Shown one piece after another: positions 10,583 through 17,916 of a stretch of 64,000 nucleotides of DNA. The notes under the pieces were generated by a model. That model was not told the origin of the DNA, did not search any database, and worked only from the letters and a program-made list of their open reading frames with translations. Source of the DNA: Devosia sp. (GTDB lineage: Bacteria; Pseudomonadota; Alphaproteobacteria; Rhizobiales; Devosiaceae); contig NZ_JAQGJV010000009.1 in NCBI RefSeq assembly GCF_028290435.1, positions 62,001 through 126,000 on the forward strand. The letters are read 5' to 3'. The position numbers were made by a program, and so were the translations under genes. How positions within the stretch are numbered: the stretch's first letter is position 1; each line of letters begins with the position of its first letter.

Positions 10583-11540
10583 GCGCCATCGCGACAGTCG
10601 CCGTAAATGCCGCGAGCATTCTCGCCCTGTCCTCGGGCTTTGACTGTTGTTCATTGCCGTTGAACAGGCCGCCATGTTCAGCCATCAGGTCGAGCAGGAA
10701 TATCGCCACATAGAGCCGGAAAATCGCATCGTCGGCCTGCTCGGCATGGTGCAGCCAGGCCATGACGTAGCCGGGCGGCCCGCCATAGGCCAGCACCGCC
10801 GCCAAGGTCAGCGCCGCGGGATAGCGCGGATCGCCGAAACACAGATCATCGACATCGACGATGCCTGACAACACGCCGGCGGGATCGATGATGACATTCT
10901 TGGTCGTCGTATCGTGCAGAAACGGCGTGGCCGGAATCCGGGCCAGCCGCTCGCGCTGGCTGGTCAATATGGTCTCGACCATTCCGATCAGGCTGGTATC
11001 GAACAGCCCATGGGCCGCCATGCGCTGCCGCGACCGATCAAGGCTGGAGCGCAACACAGCCTCCCAGGTGGCAAAGGGTGCGTCTTCCGGCCGGATCGCA
11101 TAGCCATAGCGACCCGCCGATCCGGTTTGAGCCACCGCAGCCTGCGCCGCGGCCACGCCGGCGGCGATACTGTCGAGCTGGCGTTCCGACAGCGATCCGA
11201 TGACGCCGCCGAGATCGCCTCCGGCAAGCCGCTCCAGCACAATCAAGGGCAAAGGCGCCTCGATATCCTGTGCCAGCAGCGCCGGCAGTGGCACCCCGCG
11301 CGGCCGCAGTAATCGCGACAGATGCACCGCGCCCGCCATCGCGGCATGTGCCGACTGGTTGCCGATGCGCACCACGACCGGCGCCGATTCGGCAAACTGC
11401 GCCTCATAAACGTAGTGCTGCGCGCCGGTGGTGAAGCGCGTGACCGCAACGGGCGAGGCACCCGTGACCTGCTTGGCCACCGACGCGGCCAAATCGGCGC
11501 TCGGCACCATAACGGCAGGAGCGATCACGCCTCGATCCAT
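10575..11540 (-). CDS. APH-fold phosphotransferase
   Basis: Up to 321 residues of the aminoglycoside phosphotransferase / choline kinase fold. The catalytic loop reads LHDTTTKNVIID, keeping the Asp and the Asn five residues later, and the metal-binding segment is GIVDVDDLCFGDP. The substrate may be a small alcohol or sugar rather than an antibiotic. The first ATG (11540) overlaps the end of the upstream oxidoreductase gene by 16 bases; a second ATG at 11510 is equally possible because neither has a good ribosome site. It is probably cotranscribed with the oxidoreductase. Confidence 0.78.
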   Translation of the reverse strand: MDRGVIAPAVMVPSADLAASVAKQVTGASPVAVTRFTTGAQHYVYEAQFAESAPVVVRIGNQSAHAAMAGAVHLSRLLRPRGVPLPALLAQDIEAPLPLIVLERLAGGDLGGVIGSLSERQLDSIAAGVAAAQAAVAQTGSAGRYGYAIRPEDAPFATWEAVLRSSLDRSRQRMAAHGLFDTSLIGMVETILTSQRERLARIPATPFLHDTTTKNVIIDPAGVLSGIVDVDDLCFGDPRYPAALTLAAVLAYGGPPGYVMAWLHHAEQADDAIFRLYVAIFLLDLMAEHGGLFNGNEQQSKPEDRARMLAAFTATVAMARG

Positions 11541-13693
11541 ACCGGCACGGACTTGAACGCTGGGGTCTTGCTGCGCGGATCGACCGCCGTGCCCACCAGC
11601 ACATTGGCCTCGGGGTAATAGGCCATGGCGCTGCCCCGCGGCAGGTCGAATTCCTTGACCACCGCGCTCATCCGCCCGACATCGGAGGCCAGCGTCACCA
11701 CCTGCCCCGCGCTCACCCCAAATGCCGCCATGTCGGCGCCATTGAGGAACACCGCATCGCGCCCCGCGCCGCCGCGATAGCTGTCATTGTCCTCGTAGAT
11801 GATGGTGTTGAACTGGCCCTCGCTGCGCACCGTCGCCAGCAGCAGTTTGCCCGCTTCCAGCACCGGCAGCGGCGTCACCACGAAATGCGCGCGCCCGTCC
11901 GGCGTGCCGAATTCGGGCACGTGCATGACCCGGTGCTTGATGTGGAATTCCTTTTTCGCCACATCGATATCGGCCAGTTGTTCAAGTCCCGGCACGATCG
12001 CCGCGATCGCCTCGCGCACTTTCGAATGCTGCCCGAACGCCTTGAAATCCACCGGCGACTCCGGCAGCAGCCGCACCGCGATATCGCAGAGGATATGGCT
12101 TTCCGGCCGCACATTCTCCAACCGCCTGATGCCGCCATCGCTCAGCCGCACATAGTTGAACATCGATTCCTGCGTCGTCGGCTGCCACTCCTCGTCGCGC
12201 GCCGTGACCGGCAGGATCAACACTTCGCCATCGCCGAGGCCATGGACGTGGCCCATATTCAGCGTCGTGGTCAGGAACAGTTTGAAGCCGATACTGCCCA
12301 TCGCGCGGCTGGCAAACTCGGTGTCCGGCGTCGCACCCCACAGATTGCCGCCCATGATCACCGCCGCGTCGATCTCGCCACGCTCGGCCGCCTTGAGGCA
12401 GGCCATGGTGTCCATGCCCTGCTGGGAGGGGAAGCTCATGCCGAAGGCGGTTTCCATCTTGCCCAGCACATCCTTGGCCAGCACCGGCTTGACGCCGATG
12501 GTGCCGATGCCCTGCACGTTGGAATGCCCGCGCAAAGGCAACAGCCCGGCAAAACGCTTGCCCACCATGCCGCGCAGGGTCGCCAGATTGGCGATGGCCT
12601 CGACATTTTCCACACCGTGGACGTGGTGCGTCATCCCCATGCCCCAGGCGAAGACGGCGTTCTGCGCCTGTCCGTAGCGCTGCGCGATCTCTTCGATGCG
12701 CGCCTGCCCGATGCCGCAGGCCGCGACAATCTCATCCCAGCTTAATGCGTCGAGATCGGCCCGGAAGGCCTCATAGCCGCTGGCATGGGCGGCGATAAAA
12801 TCCTGGGCCTCCAGCCCCGCCGCGATCACCGCCTTGGCAATCCCCTTCATCAACGCGATATCCGAGCCGATCCGCGGCTGCAGATAGTCCGAGGCAATCT
12901 CGCTGCCGCCCTTGAGCATCGAGCTTGGCGATTTCGGCACCGCAAACTTGACCAGTCCCGGCTCCTTGGCCGGATTGATGACGATCACCTGCCCGCCCCG
13001 CTCGCGGCAATTCTTGAGCATGTGGATGAAGCGCGGATGATTGGACGACGGATTGGCGCCGATCACGAAGATCAGGTCGCACCCGGTCAGGTCCTCGAGC
13101 TCGACACTGGCGGTGCCCGAACCGATCGTCGTCTTCAGCCCCTCGCTGGTCGCCTGGTGGCAATAGTAGGAGCAGTTGTTGACGTTGTTGGTGCCGTAGG
13201 CCCGCGCCAAAAGCTGGAAAATGAACCCTGCCTCGTTAGACGAGCGCCCCGAGGAATAAAAGAAACTCCGCTGTGGCTGCGTCACCTTGAGCTGTGCTGC
13301 CGCATGCGCAATGGCGAAATCCCAGCCCACCGGCTCGAACCGGTCCGCGCCCGCCGCCTTGAAAATCGGCGTGCCCAGCCGCCCGAGCTTTTCCATCTCG
13401 CGCCCGGTCAATTCGCCCAACTCGGCAATGGAATGCTCGAAAATCGGCTCGGGGATCGCGGCGCGCACATCGCTCGATTGCGCCTGCACACTCTTGTTGC
13501 AGACCGAGGGAAATTCCCCCAGCTCGTTGGTCATTCCACCGCGCTGGCCGCCCATGCCATAGGCACAGGCCTTGCAGGCATTCTTGGACGTCAGCGCCTT
13601 GGCTGCCTTGCCCACGCCCATCCGGCCAACGGTCTGCAGCGTATAGAGAACCTTCTTGGGTCCGCCACCGACGATCGGCTTGCCATGGGCCAT
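11525..13693 (-). CDS. FdhF/YdeP-type molybdopterin oxidoreductase
   Basis: A 722-residue protein of the molybdopterin oxidoreductase superfamily, closest in layout to YdeP-like FdhF-family proteins. Near the N-terminus is CKACAYGMGGQRGG with two cysteines and, further on, a single CNKS; the four-cysteine iron-sulfur motif of true formate dehydrogenases is therefore not obvious. Cofactor-binding segments include FVIGANPSSNHPRF and AWGMGMTHHVHG. The C-terminal molydop-binding domain contains IIYEDNDSYRGGAGRD. E. coli YdeP is linked to acid resistance, but the substrate is unknown. ATG at 13693 follows GGAGGAG by six bases and is preferred over the adjacent GTG. Confidence 0.85.
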   Translation of the reverse strand: MAHGKPIVGGGPKKVLYTLQTVGRMGVGKAAKALTSKNACKACAYGMGGQRGGMTNELGEFPSVCNKSVQAQSSDVRAAIPEPIFEHSIAELGELTGREMEKLGRLGTPIFKAAGADRFEPVGWDFAIAHAAAQLKVTQPQRSFFYSSGRSSNEAGFIFQLLARAYGTNNVNNCSYYCHQATSEGLKTTIGSGTASVELEDLTGCDLIFVIGANPSSNHPRFIHMLKNCRERGGQVIVINPAKEPGLVKFAVPKSPSSMLKGGSEIASDYLQPRIGSDIALMKGIAKAVIAAGLEAQDFIAAHASGYEAFRADLDALSWDEIVAACGIGQARIEEIAQRYGQAQNAVFAWGMGMTHHVHGVENVEAIANLATLRGMVGKRFAGLLPLRGHSNVQGIGTIGVKPVLAKDVLGKMETAFGMSFPSQQGMDTMACLKAAERGEIDAAVIMGGNLWGATPDTEFASRAMGSIGFKLFLTTTLNMGHVHGLGDGEVLILPVTARDEEWQPTTQESMFNYVRLSDGGIRRLENVRPESHILCDIAVRLLPESPVDFKAFGQHSKVREAIAAIVPGLEQLADIDVAKKEFHIKHRVMHVPEFGTPDGRAHFVVTPLPVLEAGKLLLATVRSEGQFNTIIYEDNDSYRGGAGRDAVFLNGADMAAFGVSAGQVVTLASDVGRMSAVVKEFDLPRGSAMAYYPEANVLVGTAVDPRSKTPAFKSVPVWIEA

Positions 13694-13765: not shown

Positions 13766-13793
13766 ACAAAAAGCCCCGGCAACCTGCCGGGGC
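13766..13793 (-). terminator. Rho-independent terminator of the collagen-like gene
   Basis: On the minus strand a stem GCCCCGGCA / TGCCGGGGC with a three-base loop is followed by TTTTTGTTG. It lies about 20 bases after the stop of the gene at 13815-14654. Confidence 0.9.
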
Positions 13794-13814
13794 CCGTTCG
13801 TCTGATTGTGGCGC

Positions 13815-14654
13815 CTACAGCACGTAGAGCACCACCGTGCCGTCGCGACGCAGGTCAACCGCCACGGCGCGATTGATATCGGCCTGGCTGAGCGTACGGC
13901 TACCGCATTTTTTCAGCAGGTTGCGCAGGTTGCCGATATCGCCCGCATAGTTGCCGAGCAACTGGTTGGCCTTGTTGGCATCGCGACGCGAGAGCAGGCT
14001 GGCCACGTTGGCGACCCCGGATGGCGGCAGGCAAACCGCATTGCCGGTAGCGAAGCGCAGGTAAGCGCGGTTTTCCAGCAGGCGAGCGAGGAAGCTGATC
14101 TTCGAGGAACCGCCAAAACCGTTAAAGCCATTGCCGCCCGACGAACCGTTCACGCCCATGGCGCCGGGCTGTCCAGGCGCACCGGGTTGACCCGGGGCAC
14201 CGGGTTGGCCGGGCGTACCGGGAATTCCCGGACCCCCACGGGAGCCCGTCAGCACATTGACGTCAACCAGGTTACCGCTGGTTCCGGCGCCACCCACATT
14301 GACGCCAGCGATACCCCCGCCGACGCCCACGCGGGCCAGGCCATTGCTGCCCCCACCGCCCAGATTGACATCTGCTAGGGAGCCGGAGCCGCCACCACTG
14401 CTACCGCCGATATTGACATTGGCCGCGGGGCTGCTGCCGCTACCGACGCTCACATCCAGTCCGCCATCGGAGCCATTGCCCCCCAGGCCCACATTGACCA
14501 AACCACCAGAGCCCGCATCACCAGACCCGACGGTCACCAGTCCATTCCCGTCGCTCCCGCTGATTATGCCTCCGAGAAGGCCTTGAGCGAAAGTAGGCAT
14601 AGTAGAACCGGCAAGTAGAATGCCGGCAAGAATCGCTATCGTATTGCGTTTCAT
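13815..14654 (-). CDS. Secreted beta-repeat protein with collagen-like segment
   Basis: A 279-residue secreted protein of unrecognised family. Residues 1-23 are a signal peptide (TMPTFA end). Residues about 30-135 hold about eight degenerate repeats of 11-14 residues with the pattern GLVxVGxGGxG, in which hydrophobic residues alternate, suggesting short beta strands. Residues 137-169 are eleven uninterrupted Gly-X-Y triplets rich in proline (GIPGTPGQPGAPGQPG), a collagen-type triple-helix signature. A compact C-terminal domain (180-279) has Cys208 and Cys250, possibly a disulfide, and ends DGTVVLYVL. ATG at 14654 follows AGGAG by six bases. The gene has its own terminator and an upstream inverted repeat. 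Confidence 0.8.
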   Translation of the reverse strand: MKRNTIAILAGILLAGSTMPTFAQGLLGGIISGSDGNGLVTVGSGDAGSGGLVNVGLGGNGSDGGLDVSVGSGSSPAANVNIGGSSGGGSGSLADVNLGGGGSNGLARVGVGGGIAGVNVGGAGTSGNLVDVNVLTGSRGGPGIPGTPGQPGAPGQPGAPGQPGAMGVNGSSGGNGFNGFGGSSKISFLARLLENRAYLRFATGNAVCLPPSGVANVASLLSRRDANKANQLLGNYAGDIGNLRNLLKKCGSRTLSQADINRAVAVDLRRDGTVVLYVL

Positions 14655-14770
14655 GGCAAATCTCCTGATCAAACAACCTGAATGGCTGTTGATGGAGCAA
14701 CCCTATTTCTGCAATTAAGTTTCGATCCGCACAGTATCGTGGAAAACGCGAATATAAGCGGGATACTAAA

Positions 14771-14800
14771 AGTATAGAACAATTTATGACATTCTATACT
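14771..14800. promoter_or_regulatory. Inverted repeat upstream of the collagen-like gene
   Basis: Arms AGTATAGAA (14771-14779) and TTCTATACT (14792-14800) are exact reverse complements separated by 12 bases, in an unusually AT-rich stretch about 115 bases before the start codon at 14654. The symmetry suggests an operator for a dimeric regulator. Confidence 0.6.
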
Positions 14801-14837
14801 AGGTAAATACGTATGCCATATTATGGAATCTGGCAAT

Positions 14838-14870
14838 AGAAAAAGGGCGCGAAACCGAAGTCTCGCGCCC
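14838..14870 (-). terminator. Rho-independent terminator
   Basis: Minus-strand stem GGGCGCGA / TCGCGCCC followed by CTTTTTC-like T-run. The nearest upstream gene on this strand is the barrel protein, whose stop is about 185 bases away. The intervening 14871-15054 holds no convincing gene but has further hairpin potential. Confidence 0.82.
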
Positions 14871-15054
14871 CCATCGGCGACACCACAAAGGAGCGTCAGC
14901 CTCTGCGGCAGTCTGCCGATCGTCTGGCAGCCGGGAGGGTTACGGCCGCCATTCCTAAGCCGTCATGTCTGGAGTGCAACGACGGTTCGCAGCCTTAACG
15001 GCGCGCACTGGCAACAGTTCCTCCAAACGCGATCTGTGATCGATGGCACCCGAC

Positions 15055-16215
15055 TTAAAGACTTCCGGTAACCGAAAGGGCGACGCCGGTCTTGTCATAG
15101 CTCTCGCCCGGATCGTCGTGATGCGCGAACGAGACCGTCGCCCCATAACCCAACCGGGGTGACACGGCATAATGCAAGCCTACCGCCGCCGTGCGACGGG
15201 ACCGGATCAAGCTGGTGTCGTAGAGCCCCGCCTCCTGCCAGCCGCCAAGCTGAGCCGATAGCTCGACTTGCGGGGCCAGCGCCACCGTGGCGCCCAGATC
15301 GATCGCGGCCGTGCGCCCGGCCACGCCATCGAGCGGATCCGCCAACTCGACCCCGGTGGCAGTGTTGAGGGTCACGGTCAGTCCATCGGTGGGCACAAGG
15401 CTCGCCGCCACCGCAAAGTATGGCGAGGTGCGGCGCAGATCGGCATGCCCCTTTGGCCATACCAGATCGAAGCCGGCCGAGCCGCTCAGGGTGAGCTGGC
15501 CGGCGATGACCCGCAAACCCGTACTCACCCGTCCGCCATCCGCCGGCGCCCGGAAGTACAGCAATTGGTCGAGTTCAGGGACCGTAGTGAACCACGCCTC
15601 CATCCCCGCCAACGCCGCCATGGTGGGCGATATCGCCTTTTCCCAGGCAATGCGTGTCGTCACGGTGCCGACATCGGCCTCCAGTTTCAGCGGCGGCAGC
15701 CCCAATCCAACCAGTTCGCTTTTCCCCTGCACGGCCCACAGCGCGGCCACATCCACCGTCACCTTTTGGTCCGGCCCGGTCACCACGAACGTGCCGACGA
15801 ATTCGTGATCCGTTTCCTCGCTGCGGATGGGGATGATGAACCCCTCGATATTGAGATCGTCGCCCGTCCAGCTTCGCGTCACCGCATAGCCGAGGCGCAG
15901 CTTGGCATCCGTGCCCAGCGCCAACTCGGCCTCAACGCCGCCGGCAACCTCGTCGTCGTCCTCATAGGTGGTGTCGAGAAACCGCGTCTGGGTGATGCGT
16001 AAGGTGCCCCGCAGCAGCGCATCGCCCGCGGTGCCCGTCAGCGATATTTCCTCGTTATGCGTCGCGTAAAAATCGCTACGCCCCGCCGCGCTATCGGTCG
16101 CGTTCGAAGTCCAGCCGGTTTCCACCTGGCTGGTGATCGTCAGCGGCGACTGTGCAGCGACGGGCCAGACCAGCAGCGTCGCGATCAATACCGTCCCAAT
16201 CGCGCGCCTGATCAT
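15055..16215 (-). CDS. Predicted outer-membrane beta-barrel protein
   Basis: A 386-residue protein with a signal peptide (residues 1-21, ending in WPVAA) and many alternating amphipathic strands such as LRLGYAVTRSW, SPYFAVAASL and LGYGATVSFAHH. The length and the short strand-turn pattern predict an outer-membrane barrel; I cannot name the family. The C-terminal strand ends GVALSVTGSL rather than in an aromatic residue, which is slightly atypical. ATG at 16215 follows AGGAG. It is divergent from the XRE regulator gene (173-base gap) and upstream, on the same strand, of the collagen-like secreted protein. Confidence 0.7.
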   Translation of the reverse strand: MIRRAIGTVLIATLLVWPVAAQSPLTITSQVETGWTSNATDSAAGRSDFYATHNEEISLTGTAGDALLRGTLRITQTRFLDTTYEDDDEVAGGVEAELALGTDAKLRLGYAVTRSWTGDDLNIEGFIIPIRSEETDHEFVGTFVVTGPDQKVTVDVAALWAVQGKSELVGLGLPPLKLEADVGTVTTRIAWEKAISPTMAALAGMEAWFTTVPELDQLLYFRAPADGGRVSTGLRVIAGQLTLSGSAGFDLVWPKGHADLRRTSPYFAVAASLVPTDGLTVTLNTATGVELADPLDGVAGRTAAIDLGATVALAPQVELSAQLGGWQEAGLYDTSLIRSRRTAAVGLHYAVSPRLGYGATVSFAHHDDPGESYDKTGVALSVTGSL

Positions 16216-16388
16216 GCTGTTCTCCTGCCTGGTCGCAGGATCGCTGAGTTCAGTAACCAATATTACACGTAGGCTCTACGCGCTTACCCGGATTTTTGCT
16301 GCTTAAAATTCACTATTAAGAGGCGAGAACCGGCCCGTAAGTATTTGATTAACTATCTTGTTTTGCCGGTTGCTGGGATTTTCGCGGC

Positions 16389-17036
16389 ATGATGTTCGAT
16401 CACGATCATGCCATGGAAGCCGAACTATGCTCCGCCCTGCGGGCCTGGCGCATCCGTTCGCGTTTGCGCCAAGATGCCATCGCCAAATGCCTTGGTGTGG
16501 CGCAAAGCCAGATTAGCCGCTGGGAGAGTGGGCGGGACCTGCCGCGCCCACACAATATCGAGGCGATCCGCCGTCTGGTCTGGGGGCCCGAAGCCGATCC
16601 ACTGCTGGCGCTGCGCCACTTCGTGACCAATTCTATCCAGCATCTGCTGTTGCTCGACGATCACCAGGAGATCCTGGCGCGCAGCATTCCCTATCAGGCG
16701 TCGCCCAATCCGCTCGACCGCTTCGGCTGGGTGCTGGACCCCGTCCACAACCCCGCCTTTGCGCCGGTTTATCGGCGCTACCTGGAACTGCTGCAAAGCC
16801 CCGGCGGAGTGATCGGCATGTCGATCACCCTGCCCTTCGAGCATGACGGGCAAGCGTGGTCAGCGGTTTTGGGGAATACTATTCATTCGATTGCCGGGGT
16901 GCGGGTGTGCCTGGCCGAGCTCACCTTCGGCCCCACGGCTGGCCAGGACCGCGACGTGCGCGTCGAGGAAGTTCGGCTCGATAGTCTGGGCGAGACGCGC
17001 CACAGCACCAAACTCTGGCACCAGCCGTCGCGTTAA
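16389..17036 (+). CDS. XRE family transcriptional regulator
   Basis: A 215-residue DNA-binding protein. Residues about 12-65 form a Cro/C1-type helix-turn-helix (RQDAIAKCLGVAQSQISRWE). The remaining 150 residues form a PAS-like or ligand-sensing domain I do not recognise. Start choices are the paired ATG codons at 16389 and 16392 or ATG at 16413; none has a strong ribosome site. It is divergent from the barrel protein and surrounded by genes for secreted proteins, so it may regulate them. Its stop codon overlaps the T-run of the terminator serving the opposite strand. Confidence 0.82.
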   Translation: MMFDHDHAMEAELCSALRAWRIRSRLRQDAIAKCLGVAQSQISRWESGRDLPRPHNIEAIRRLVWGPEADPLLALRHFVTNSIQHLLLLDDHQEILARSIPYQASPNPLDRFGWVLDPVHNPAFAPVYRRYLELLQSPGGVIGMSITLPFEHDGQAWSAVLGNTIHSIAGVRVCLAELTFGPTAGQDRDVRVEEVRLDSLGETRHSTKLWHQPSR

Positions 17037-17075
17037 AAAACAGCGAGCCCGCGCCGGGAGGTGTGGCGCGGGCTC
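17035..17075 (-). terminator. Rho-independent terminator
   Basis: Minus-strand stem GAGCCCGCGCC / GGCGCGGGCTC followed by a run of six T residues after a four-base gap. It serves the small secreted-protein gene at 17095-17421. Confidence 0.85.
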
Positions 17076-17094
17076 TAGATCGCGGGAGGCGGGG

Positions 17095-17421
17095 CTACCA
17101 GCCGCGATGATGGCTATTGTTCTGGGTCTGGTTCTGGCCGCCGAGGCCCAGAATGCCGTTGCCATTGAGTACGCCGTTCAGCAGGCCGCCGCCCAACACG
17201 CCATTGGCGCTGCCATTGCCGATACCGGACAGGATATTGCTGTTATTGCCGACAGCGACGGTATTGCCATTGAGCACATTGATGTCACGCGTGGTCAGGC
17301 CGACAACAATTCCAGTGATGTTGGACAGGATCGGCGCACGCTTGGTAAAGAACCCGCCGGCCTGGGCGCCCGATGTCAGCGCCATGACAGCAACGACCGA
17401 TACTGCGATCAAAATCTTCAT
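17095..17421 (-). CDS. Small secreted Gly/Asn-rich protein
   Basis: A 108-residue protein with a clean signal peptide (residues 1-21, ending in SGAQA). The mature part contains short repeats rich in Gly, Asn and branched residues (NSNILSGIGNG, NGVLGGGLLNGVLNGNG) and ends with Gln/Asn/His. This composition resembles self-associating surface proteins, but no family is recognised. ATG at 17421 follows GGGAG by about eight bases, and an efficient terminator follows the gene. It lies close to the collagen-like and barrel genes, which also encode exported proteins. Confidence 0.75.
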   Translation of the reverse strand: MKILIAVSVVAVMALTSGAQAGGFFTKRAPILSNITGIVVGLTTRDINVLNGNTVAVGNNSNILSGIGNGSANGVLGGGLLNGVLNGNGILGLGGQNQTQNNSHHRGW

Positions 17422-17916
17422 TTTCTCAACTCCCGATTGCTTATGTCTTCTCGACCAGGGGAGACAAACATCCAGCATCGGCCGCAGCAAGATTAACGCC
17501 CTATTTTATGCGTTCCATGCAAACTATGCGCGGATTGGGCCATAATCTGCTGGAAATTGGCGATATTGGAGTGATCTCCTCGGCTGAGGCGGCGTCATTG
17601 GCAGACCGGGCTCAGGCGAATGAAGCCCCACGCCGTTGCCGGCGCGGGGCCGAGGTGGTCGGTGCAAACAACCTCTGCCGAAGAAATTCTTCGGTGAGCC
17701 AATGCTAGCTGATTTGTTGGCACGGGTCATCTGCAACCGATTTCATCACCAGAATTGCTGCTCCGCCATTTTGCTCAAACGTTAAGCAGCCGTAAATACG
17801 CCTGCCTAAACAACCAGCAATCGCTAAAGAACTCTATGCAGCGCCGGAAGCTCTTACGTCGCGAAACTTCGCCTCACCTCAATTGAATCAATCGATTAGC
17901 CCCCACACTCAAGTGC
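17422..17916. other. Intergenic region upstream of urtA
   Basis: About 500 bases without a convincing gene. It holds the promoter region of the small secreted protein, a GC-rich imperfect hairpin near 17625-17650, a perfect dyad at 17678-17694 and the approach to the sigma-54 promoter. Short frames here lack ribosome sites and coding character. Confidence 0.6.
17678..17694. promoter_or_regulatory. Perfect 17-base dyad upstream of urtA
   Basis: CCGAAGAA and TTCTTCGG flank one central A. The site is 222 bases before the predicted sigma-54 promoter, a position where enhancer-binding proteins act, but it does not match the usual NtrC site. Confidence 0.4.

Follow-up and report, generated by a model that had tools for sequence, protein, structure and literature searches.

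A stalk-neck-head protein of Devosia and its family, with a glycine-rich neck and two types of terminal head

A gene in a stretch of Devosia sp. DNA (64,000 nucleotides in full, referred to here as the window) raises the question of what kind of protein carries beta-type repeats, then a run of Gly-X-Y triplets, then a compact domain with two cysteines. The window protein is a member of a real, coherent family of Devosia and nearby genera, for which the sources searched hold no description. Its members begin with a signal-like segment, continue with a beta-type stalk and a neck, both rich in Gly, and end in one of two types of head, A (that of the window protein) or B. The family belongs to a known broad kind, the bacterial collagen-like proteins, and its combination of parts is unusual.

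Architecture of the window protein

The gene occupies positions 13815 to 14654, as had been predicted, and lies on the minus strand, which the prediction had left unstated. Read from an ATG at 14654 to a stop at 13815, it encodes 279 residues and has two full-length relatives in the protein database, P0001 (85% identical) and P0002 (67%). The predicted beta-type repeats, Gly-X-Y segment and two-cysteine C-terminal domain are all present, and are preceded by a signal-peptide-like start at residues 1–24 (14583–14654, minus strand), which was read by eye and resembles the starts of the relatives. The stalk (residues 25–136; 14247–14582, minus strand) holds about eight xLVxVGxGG-type units and is type B-like by profile score. 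The neck consists of 16 consecutive Gly-X-Y triplets, eight of them Gly-X-Pro (residues 137–184; 14103–14246, minus strand), and its DNA contains a repeat of period 18. The type A head, defined from residue 183 so that the last two residues of the neck overlap it, comprises 97 residues (183–279; 13818–14108, minus strand), with cysteines at residues 208 and 250 (codons 14031–14033 and 13905–13907).

Of the two counts originally given, about eight repeats agrees with the eight [VIL]x[VIL]G-like units found in residues 25–136, while eleven triplets was an undercount. Eight units are weakly unusual for the composition (198 of 5000 shuffles reach eight), and conservation, as judged from aligned sequences, is the better evidence for the stalk repeats: in GLVNVGLGG, seven of nine positions are kept in at least 90% of 20 aligned members having the window-type stalk, a set chosen by likeness to the window protein.

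Three features of the bacterial collagen-like class were compared. The Gly-X-Y tract exceeds chance, with 16 triplets against a longest run of 10 and a mean of 3.7 in 20000 shuffles of the mature protein, and the non-collagenous stalk and head on either side of it are kept in relatives. The third, export, may apply, as the start of the protein, read by eye, and the similar starts of its relatives suggest; together with the cysteine pair kept in the heads, this start supports the prediction that the protein would be secreted.

Searches of named families were consistent with the claim that none has this order, which stands within the libraries covered (Pfam and NCBIfam, nothing beyond Collagen). 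The window protein matches Collagen (PF01391) at 25.9 bits, below the gathering score of 27.2, and so falls short of formal membership; the type B relative P0009 passes at 27.6 bits. No NCBIfam model matched the window protein above cut-off. Among 15 type A-headed and 17 type B proteins, Collagen was the sole Pfam match (8 of 15 and 8 of 17, E up to 0.1), and NCBIfam matched just one of the 17 type B proteins, once and marginally. Pfam found DUF1566 neither in the window protein nor in these 15 and 17, and it found no curlin repeats, the mark of curli-type amyloids, in the window protein or the scanned relatives. It likewise found no membrane-anchor barrel of trimeric autotransporters in the window protein or the 15 type A-headed proteins scanned, and the C-terminus of the window protein is modelled as a helix/strand head, not as the anchor of such an adhesin. 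The open-licence literature on collagen-like proteins and adhesins and on Devosia and Hyphomicrobiales, searched by titles and abstract beginnings, held nothing on the stalk-neck-head family.

The AlphaFold2 model of the window protein (15 sequences) has a mean pLDDT of 45.1, with values below 50 in the stalk and of 54–82 in blocks of the head, whose predicted order is helix-helix-strand-helix-helix-helix-strand-strand. For the type B relative P0009 (17 sequences) the mean is 62.4, with head blocks of 74–89 from residue 171 and seven successive stalk strands in blocks of 47–68. A PDB search returned no convincingly matching solved structure. The predicted fibre-forming or adhesive character stays conjectural, as structure prediction gave stalk strands at low confidence only. 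These strands bear on a reading in which the beta-repeat region is the working part of a self-assembling, amyloid- or fibre-like matrix protein and the head a cap or targeting domain. Such a role would fit the succession of strands in the P0009 model and the strong conservation of GLVNVGLGG. However, model confidence is low, Pfam recognises neither curlin nor another fibre family, and no known nucleator or secretion gene was recognised beside the window gene, so that we regard a matrix protein of this kind as improbable.

Two types of head on related stalks

Besides P0001 and P0002, the protein database holds 18 more distant relatives (P0003–P0020); P0021 was left out, as it looks unrelated. 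Genomes of the same genus added 17 further proteins. From the 22 matches of that search we removed the window itself, L015 (another family), L021 (the opposite strand of L003), and L022 and L023, which make up a 666-residue frame. This frame, seen in L022 (genome G031), has several collagen-like stretches, is unlike the stalk-neck-head family and is perhaps a phage tail protein. The common plan was found in 68 distinct proteins including the window protein (17 type A-headed, 51 type B), with three later-fetched type A genes uncounted and L034 a fragment. With a related stalk, a Gly-rich neck and a two-cysteine head of one of the two types, the window protein belongs among them.

The proposed check of whether the C-terminal domain recurs gave a double answer: the head is indeed found again in relatives, and a different head was also found on the same kind of stalk. 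The type A consensus runs from SSRLRxILxxLAxRDWIRxVNGRAICL to NRVIGxDIxRNGTPVLYxL, while type B shows CxG, then SWxRASNVQ, CPExRxWLAA and RVFAVxxxGxxLTVYVY. Both cysteines are kept in all 52 type B heads and in 19 of 20 type A heads (all but L092 of genome G461), as expected of an exported domain, in which they may form a disulfide. In the same genome G461, L095 (8209–8976) encodes a type A-like head (E 4.9e-10) with neither cysteine and a different Gly/Val repeat stalk.

The two heads are without clear sequence similarity. The first profiles aligned by hhalign with a probability of 0.9%; with 20 A and 52 B heads, only the last hairpin aligned (probability 7%, score 20.39), a score reached by one of 200 column-shuffled runs, the matching unshuffled run giving 20.1. 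The hairpin match is therefore suggestive only. Both AlphaFold2 heads have the same order (H-H-E-H-H-H-E-E), and a common fold, as modelled, is possible.

To compare the stalks, two profiles were built on their first 60 residues, one from 14 of the 16 other type A-headed proteins and one from 51 of the 52 type B proteins, the two and the one left out lacking the anchor motif; the piece of P0020 was cut too late and extends into the neck. The window, P0001, P0002 and Devosia limi proteins were in neither profile. Their stalks score 45.6, 51.3, 59.6 and 83.7 bits with the type B profile, respectively, versus -7.5, -5.0, -5.6 and -7.4 with type A. The 14 members of the type A profile score 43.5–86.1 bits with A and at most 0.4 with B, and type B stalks have medians of 69.3 bits with B and -5.9 with A. 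The heads tell the opposite story: the D. limi head, itself outside the head profile, is found by the type A profile at E 5.7e-35, and the window head is 30–43% identical to the heads of the 14 type A-headed proteins.

By these profile scores, the window protein looks chimeric, its head being of type A and its stalk of the type B kind, and recombination between family members is the probable source of the mismatch. The evidence that the family exchanges heads is good though not final, and we consider such exchange likely; fast divergence of the type A stalks in the sister genus could also account for the scores. The idea that the chimera arose from a simple A-B tandem was considered and is weakened: the type B genes that stand beside type A genes in G475 and G477 miss the B-type stalk profile, so these tandems are not its direct source.

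Neck variation and comparison with known proteins

All 17 type A-headed proteins have 8–21 consecutive Gly-X-Y triplets; in six of these proteins half or more of the triplets contain Pro, and in eleven the run is poor in Pro. Among type B proteins, 35 of 51 have runs of at least eight triplets (25 with Pro in at least half, 10 Pro-poor) and 16 have shorter ones. Runs of Gly-Gly-Pro, Gly-Asn-Pro, Gly-Gln-Pro, Gly-Gly-Asn or Gly-Asn-Asn occupy the same position, and Pro, where present, mostly directly precedes Gly (the Y place, Gly-X-Pro). In bacterial collagens, by contrast, Pro is usual in the X place, and bacteria do not generally hydroxylate proline. Several kinds of neck occur in the family, the collagen-like tract among them, and since many members have short or Pro-poor runs, the family as a whole can do without a triple helix.

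The same variation suits an explanation in which the neck of a secreted protein is a flexible or polyglycine-II-like spacer, at times Gly-X-Pro in composition, that forms no collagen helix. The change of composition at one position, the short type B runs and the long Pro-poor runs under both heads all agree with it. On the other hand, every type A-headed protein keeps a strict run of triplets beyond what spacing needs, and the run of the window protein is longer than any in its shuffles. A mere spacer is possible, if somewhat doubtful.

Similar layouts are known from surface proteins. Streptococcal Scl and Bacillus BclA have a collagen-like shaft and a separate head or tip, as in the window protein, but their anchoring is Gram-positive and their heads are different. 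The nearest model for function is Legionella Lcl, described as a trimeric lollipop whose ligand-binding head lies beyond a collagen-like stalk and for which surface targeting is reported (PMC11162425). According to the same source, Lcl is also from a Gram-negative bacterium and has the same order of signal sequence, N-terminal region, collagen-like repeats and C-terminal head; in contrast, its N-terminal region is a 30-residue helix instead of beta repeats, its repeat consensus begins Gly-Pro-Gln instead of Gly-X-Pro, and its head holds the DUF1566 that the window protein and scanned relatives lack (PMC11162425). Burkholderia Bucl proteins, in the portion of their description used, likewise carry Gly-X-Y tracts (2–63 repeats, varying in number) between non-collagenous N- and C-terminal parts, but their triplets are mostly GAN, GAS, GTS and the like, with Pro listed in one type only, their named domains (Talin-1, OEP and others) differ, and that portion describes no such exchange of stalks and heads (PMC4565658).

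By analogy with Lcl, we give about an even chance to the window protein being a secreted cell-surface or matrix protein of stalk and head, perhaps trimeric, whose head binds a ligand. Mechanistically, the signal peptide would take the chain across the inner membrane, the Gly-rich beta-repeat region would form a rigid or self-associating stalk, and the Gly-X-Y neck would join three chains in a collagen-like triple helix. The two-cysteine head would then display a binding face, with a possible adhesive role, and may initiate trimer formation. Swapping of heads within the family would have given the window protein its type A head, joined to a stalk of the type B kind. A search for an outer-membrane anchor or secretion gene accompanying the window gene found none.

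A broader proposal, which we put forward only tentatively, is that related stalks at and around a single chromosomal slot trade two unlike heads. Over the same family, the sequence at the neck position would shift between collagen-like runs of Gly-X-Pro and runs of Gly-Gly-Asn or Gly-Asn-Asn that are perhaps polyglycine-II-like. If true, the family would be a natural series in which gain and loss of a collagen triple helix could be traced between close relatives, and its graded necks would allow a test of the smallest number of changes by which a Gly-rich linker becomes a bacterial collagen triple helix.

Distribution and the chromosomal slot

Type B occurs in 45 of 75 genomes of the genus, though not in the window's own genome, and type A in two (the window genome and G431); 46 of the 75 have either head. 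In the window's taxonomic family, type A was found in 6 of 136 genomes, which belong to 3 of 16 genera. When genomes of named species were scanned with two strict type A patterns, two of the 28 matches proved to be relatives (in Devosia limi DSM 17137 and Devosia sp. 67-54), in a set from which the window's own record may be missing. At most 12–17 candidates per genome were scored in the order and class searches. At the level of the order, type A was seen in at least 1 of 397 genomes (a sample that was only partly scored), a later search finding more of them in the window's taxonomic family, and type B in at least 7 of 297, all within that family; a class sample containing no known positive gave type B in 0 of 385.

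Some 120 bases separate the end of the window gene from a downstream molybdopterin oxidoreductase gene of the same strand (11525–13693, minus). This neighbour marks the slot and has matches in 68 of the 75 genomes, some of them distant paralogues. We inspected 40 stretches upstream of this gene, up to about 8 kb each and chosen partly for a head gene seen nearby: 13 hold a type B gene, one a type A-headed gene (D. limi) and 26 neither, and all head genes lie on the oxidoreductase strand. At least 4 of the 13 (L080, L081, L083, L084) have an ABC-ATPase-like gene in between, and in L080 the type B gene is split across two frames. In the sister genus, G474 has a type A gene in the slot, G477 has the order A, B, oxidoreductase, and G475 has A and B adjoining without the oxidoreductase. 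In G027, G028, G430, G454 and G455 the type B gene lies about 55–76 kb from the oxidoreductase, which suggests rearrangement.

Consensus matching places a terminator-like hairpin before the gene (14843–14872, minus) and another after it (13771–13795, minus), with a promoter-like site upstream (14791–14819, minus; 9 of 12 consensus matches only). The genome G003, whose oxidoreductase is 98% identical in protein, has no head gene. Its flanks match the window at 83% over 1469 bases on the barrel side (the upstream neighbour, below) and 93.5% over 478 on the other. The two matches overlap by 6 bases, and about 1,072 bases (window about 13774–14845) are missing. The missing piece is bounded by two T-tracts, one belonging to the hairpin before the gene, which is kept, and one to the hairpin after it; hence the transcription unit is either there as a whole or wholly absent. 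Loss in G003 appears likelier than gain, because D. limi holds the chimera in the same slot. The family is modular, probably exported and without a name in the libraries covered; head exchange in it is likely, and the presence or absence of the whole transcription unit is clean.

The slot also bears on whether the gene could be a phage tail-fibre fragment or a relic of a mobile element. Collagen-like tracts are common in phage tail fibres, and PHROG matches were obtained for the window protein through its tract (E 2.5e-5), for P0009 in the tract as well, where one match is named tail fiber (E 0.044), and marginally in its head (E 0.099), and for P0008 over residues 142–270, a stretch that starts in the stalk, crosses the neck and enters the head (E 3.3e-5, a family of unknown function). 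Against this, no close-range relative of the type A head appeared among viral contigs, the type B P0009 had no match in 72,556 plasmids, and the gene has a signal-peptide-like start, its own promoter-like site and terminators, and a common chromosomal slot. A phage or mobile origin is, in our judgement, highly improbable.

Upstream lies an outer-membrane barrel-like gene (15055–16260, minus) with weak BBP2_2 and YaiO matches, both under cut-off. It was considered as a dedicated partner and rejected, as it does not track the family: 10 of the 16 genomes of the genus that have it carry a type A or B head, versus 46 of 75 overall, and six have no head gene (G003, G004, G008, G013, G439, G443). 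It precedes the head gene in the window, L066, L078, L079, L080, L081 and L097, and stands without a head gene after it in L049 (G003) and L076 (G293).

Further upstream, the window encodes a small Gly/Asn-rich exported-looking protein (17095–17490, minus) beside a helix-turn-helix regulator (16389–17036, plus). Both accompany the barrel gene in L049, L066, L076, L078, L079, L080 and L081, and in L097 from another genus. Between the barrel gene and the first terminator-like hairpin, the non-coding stretch 14843–15060 (minus), which G003 also has, could be a small RNA gene; it had no Rfam match at E up to 1. A second stretch, 17040–17121 (minus), matches the alphaproteobacterial small RNA ar14 weakly (26.9 bits, gathering score 58.8, E 0.062) and is perhaps a distant relative of it.
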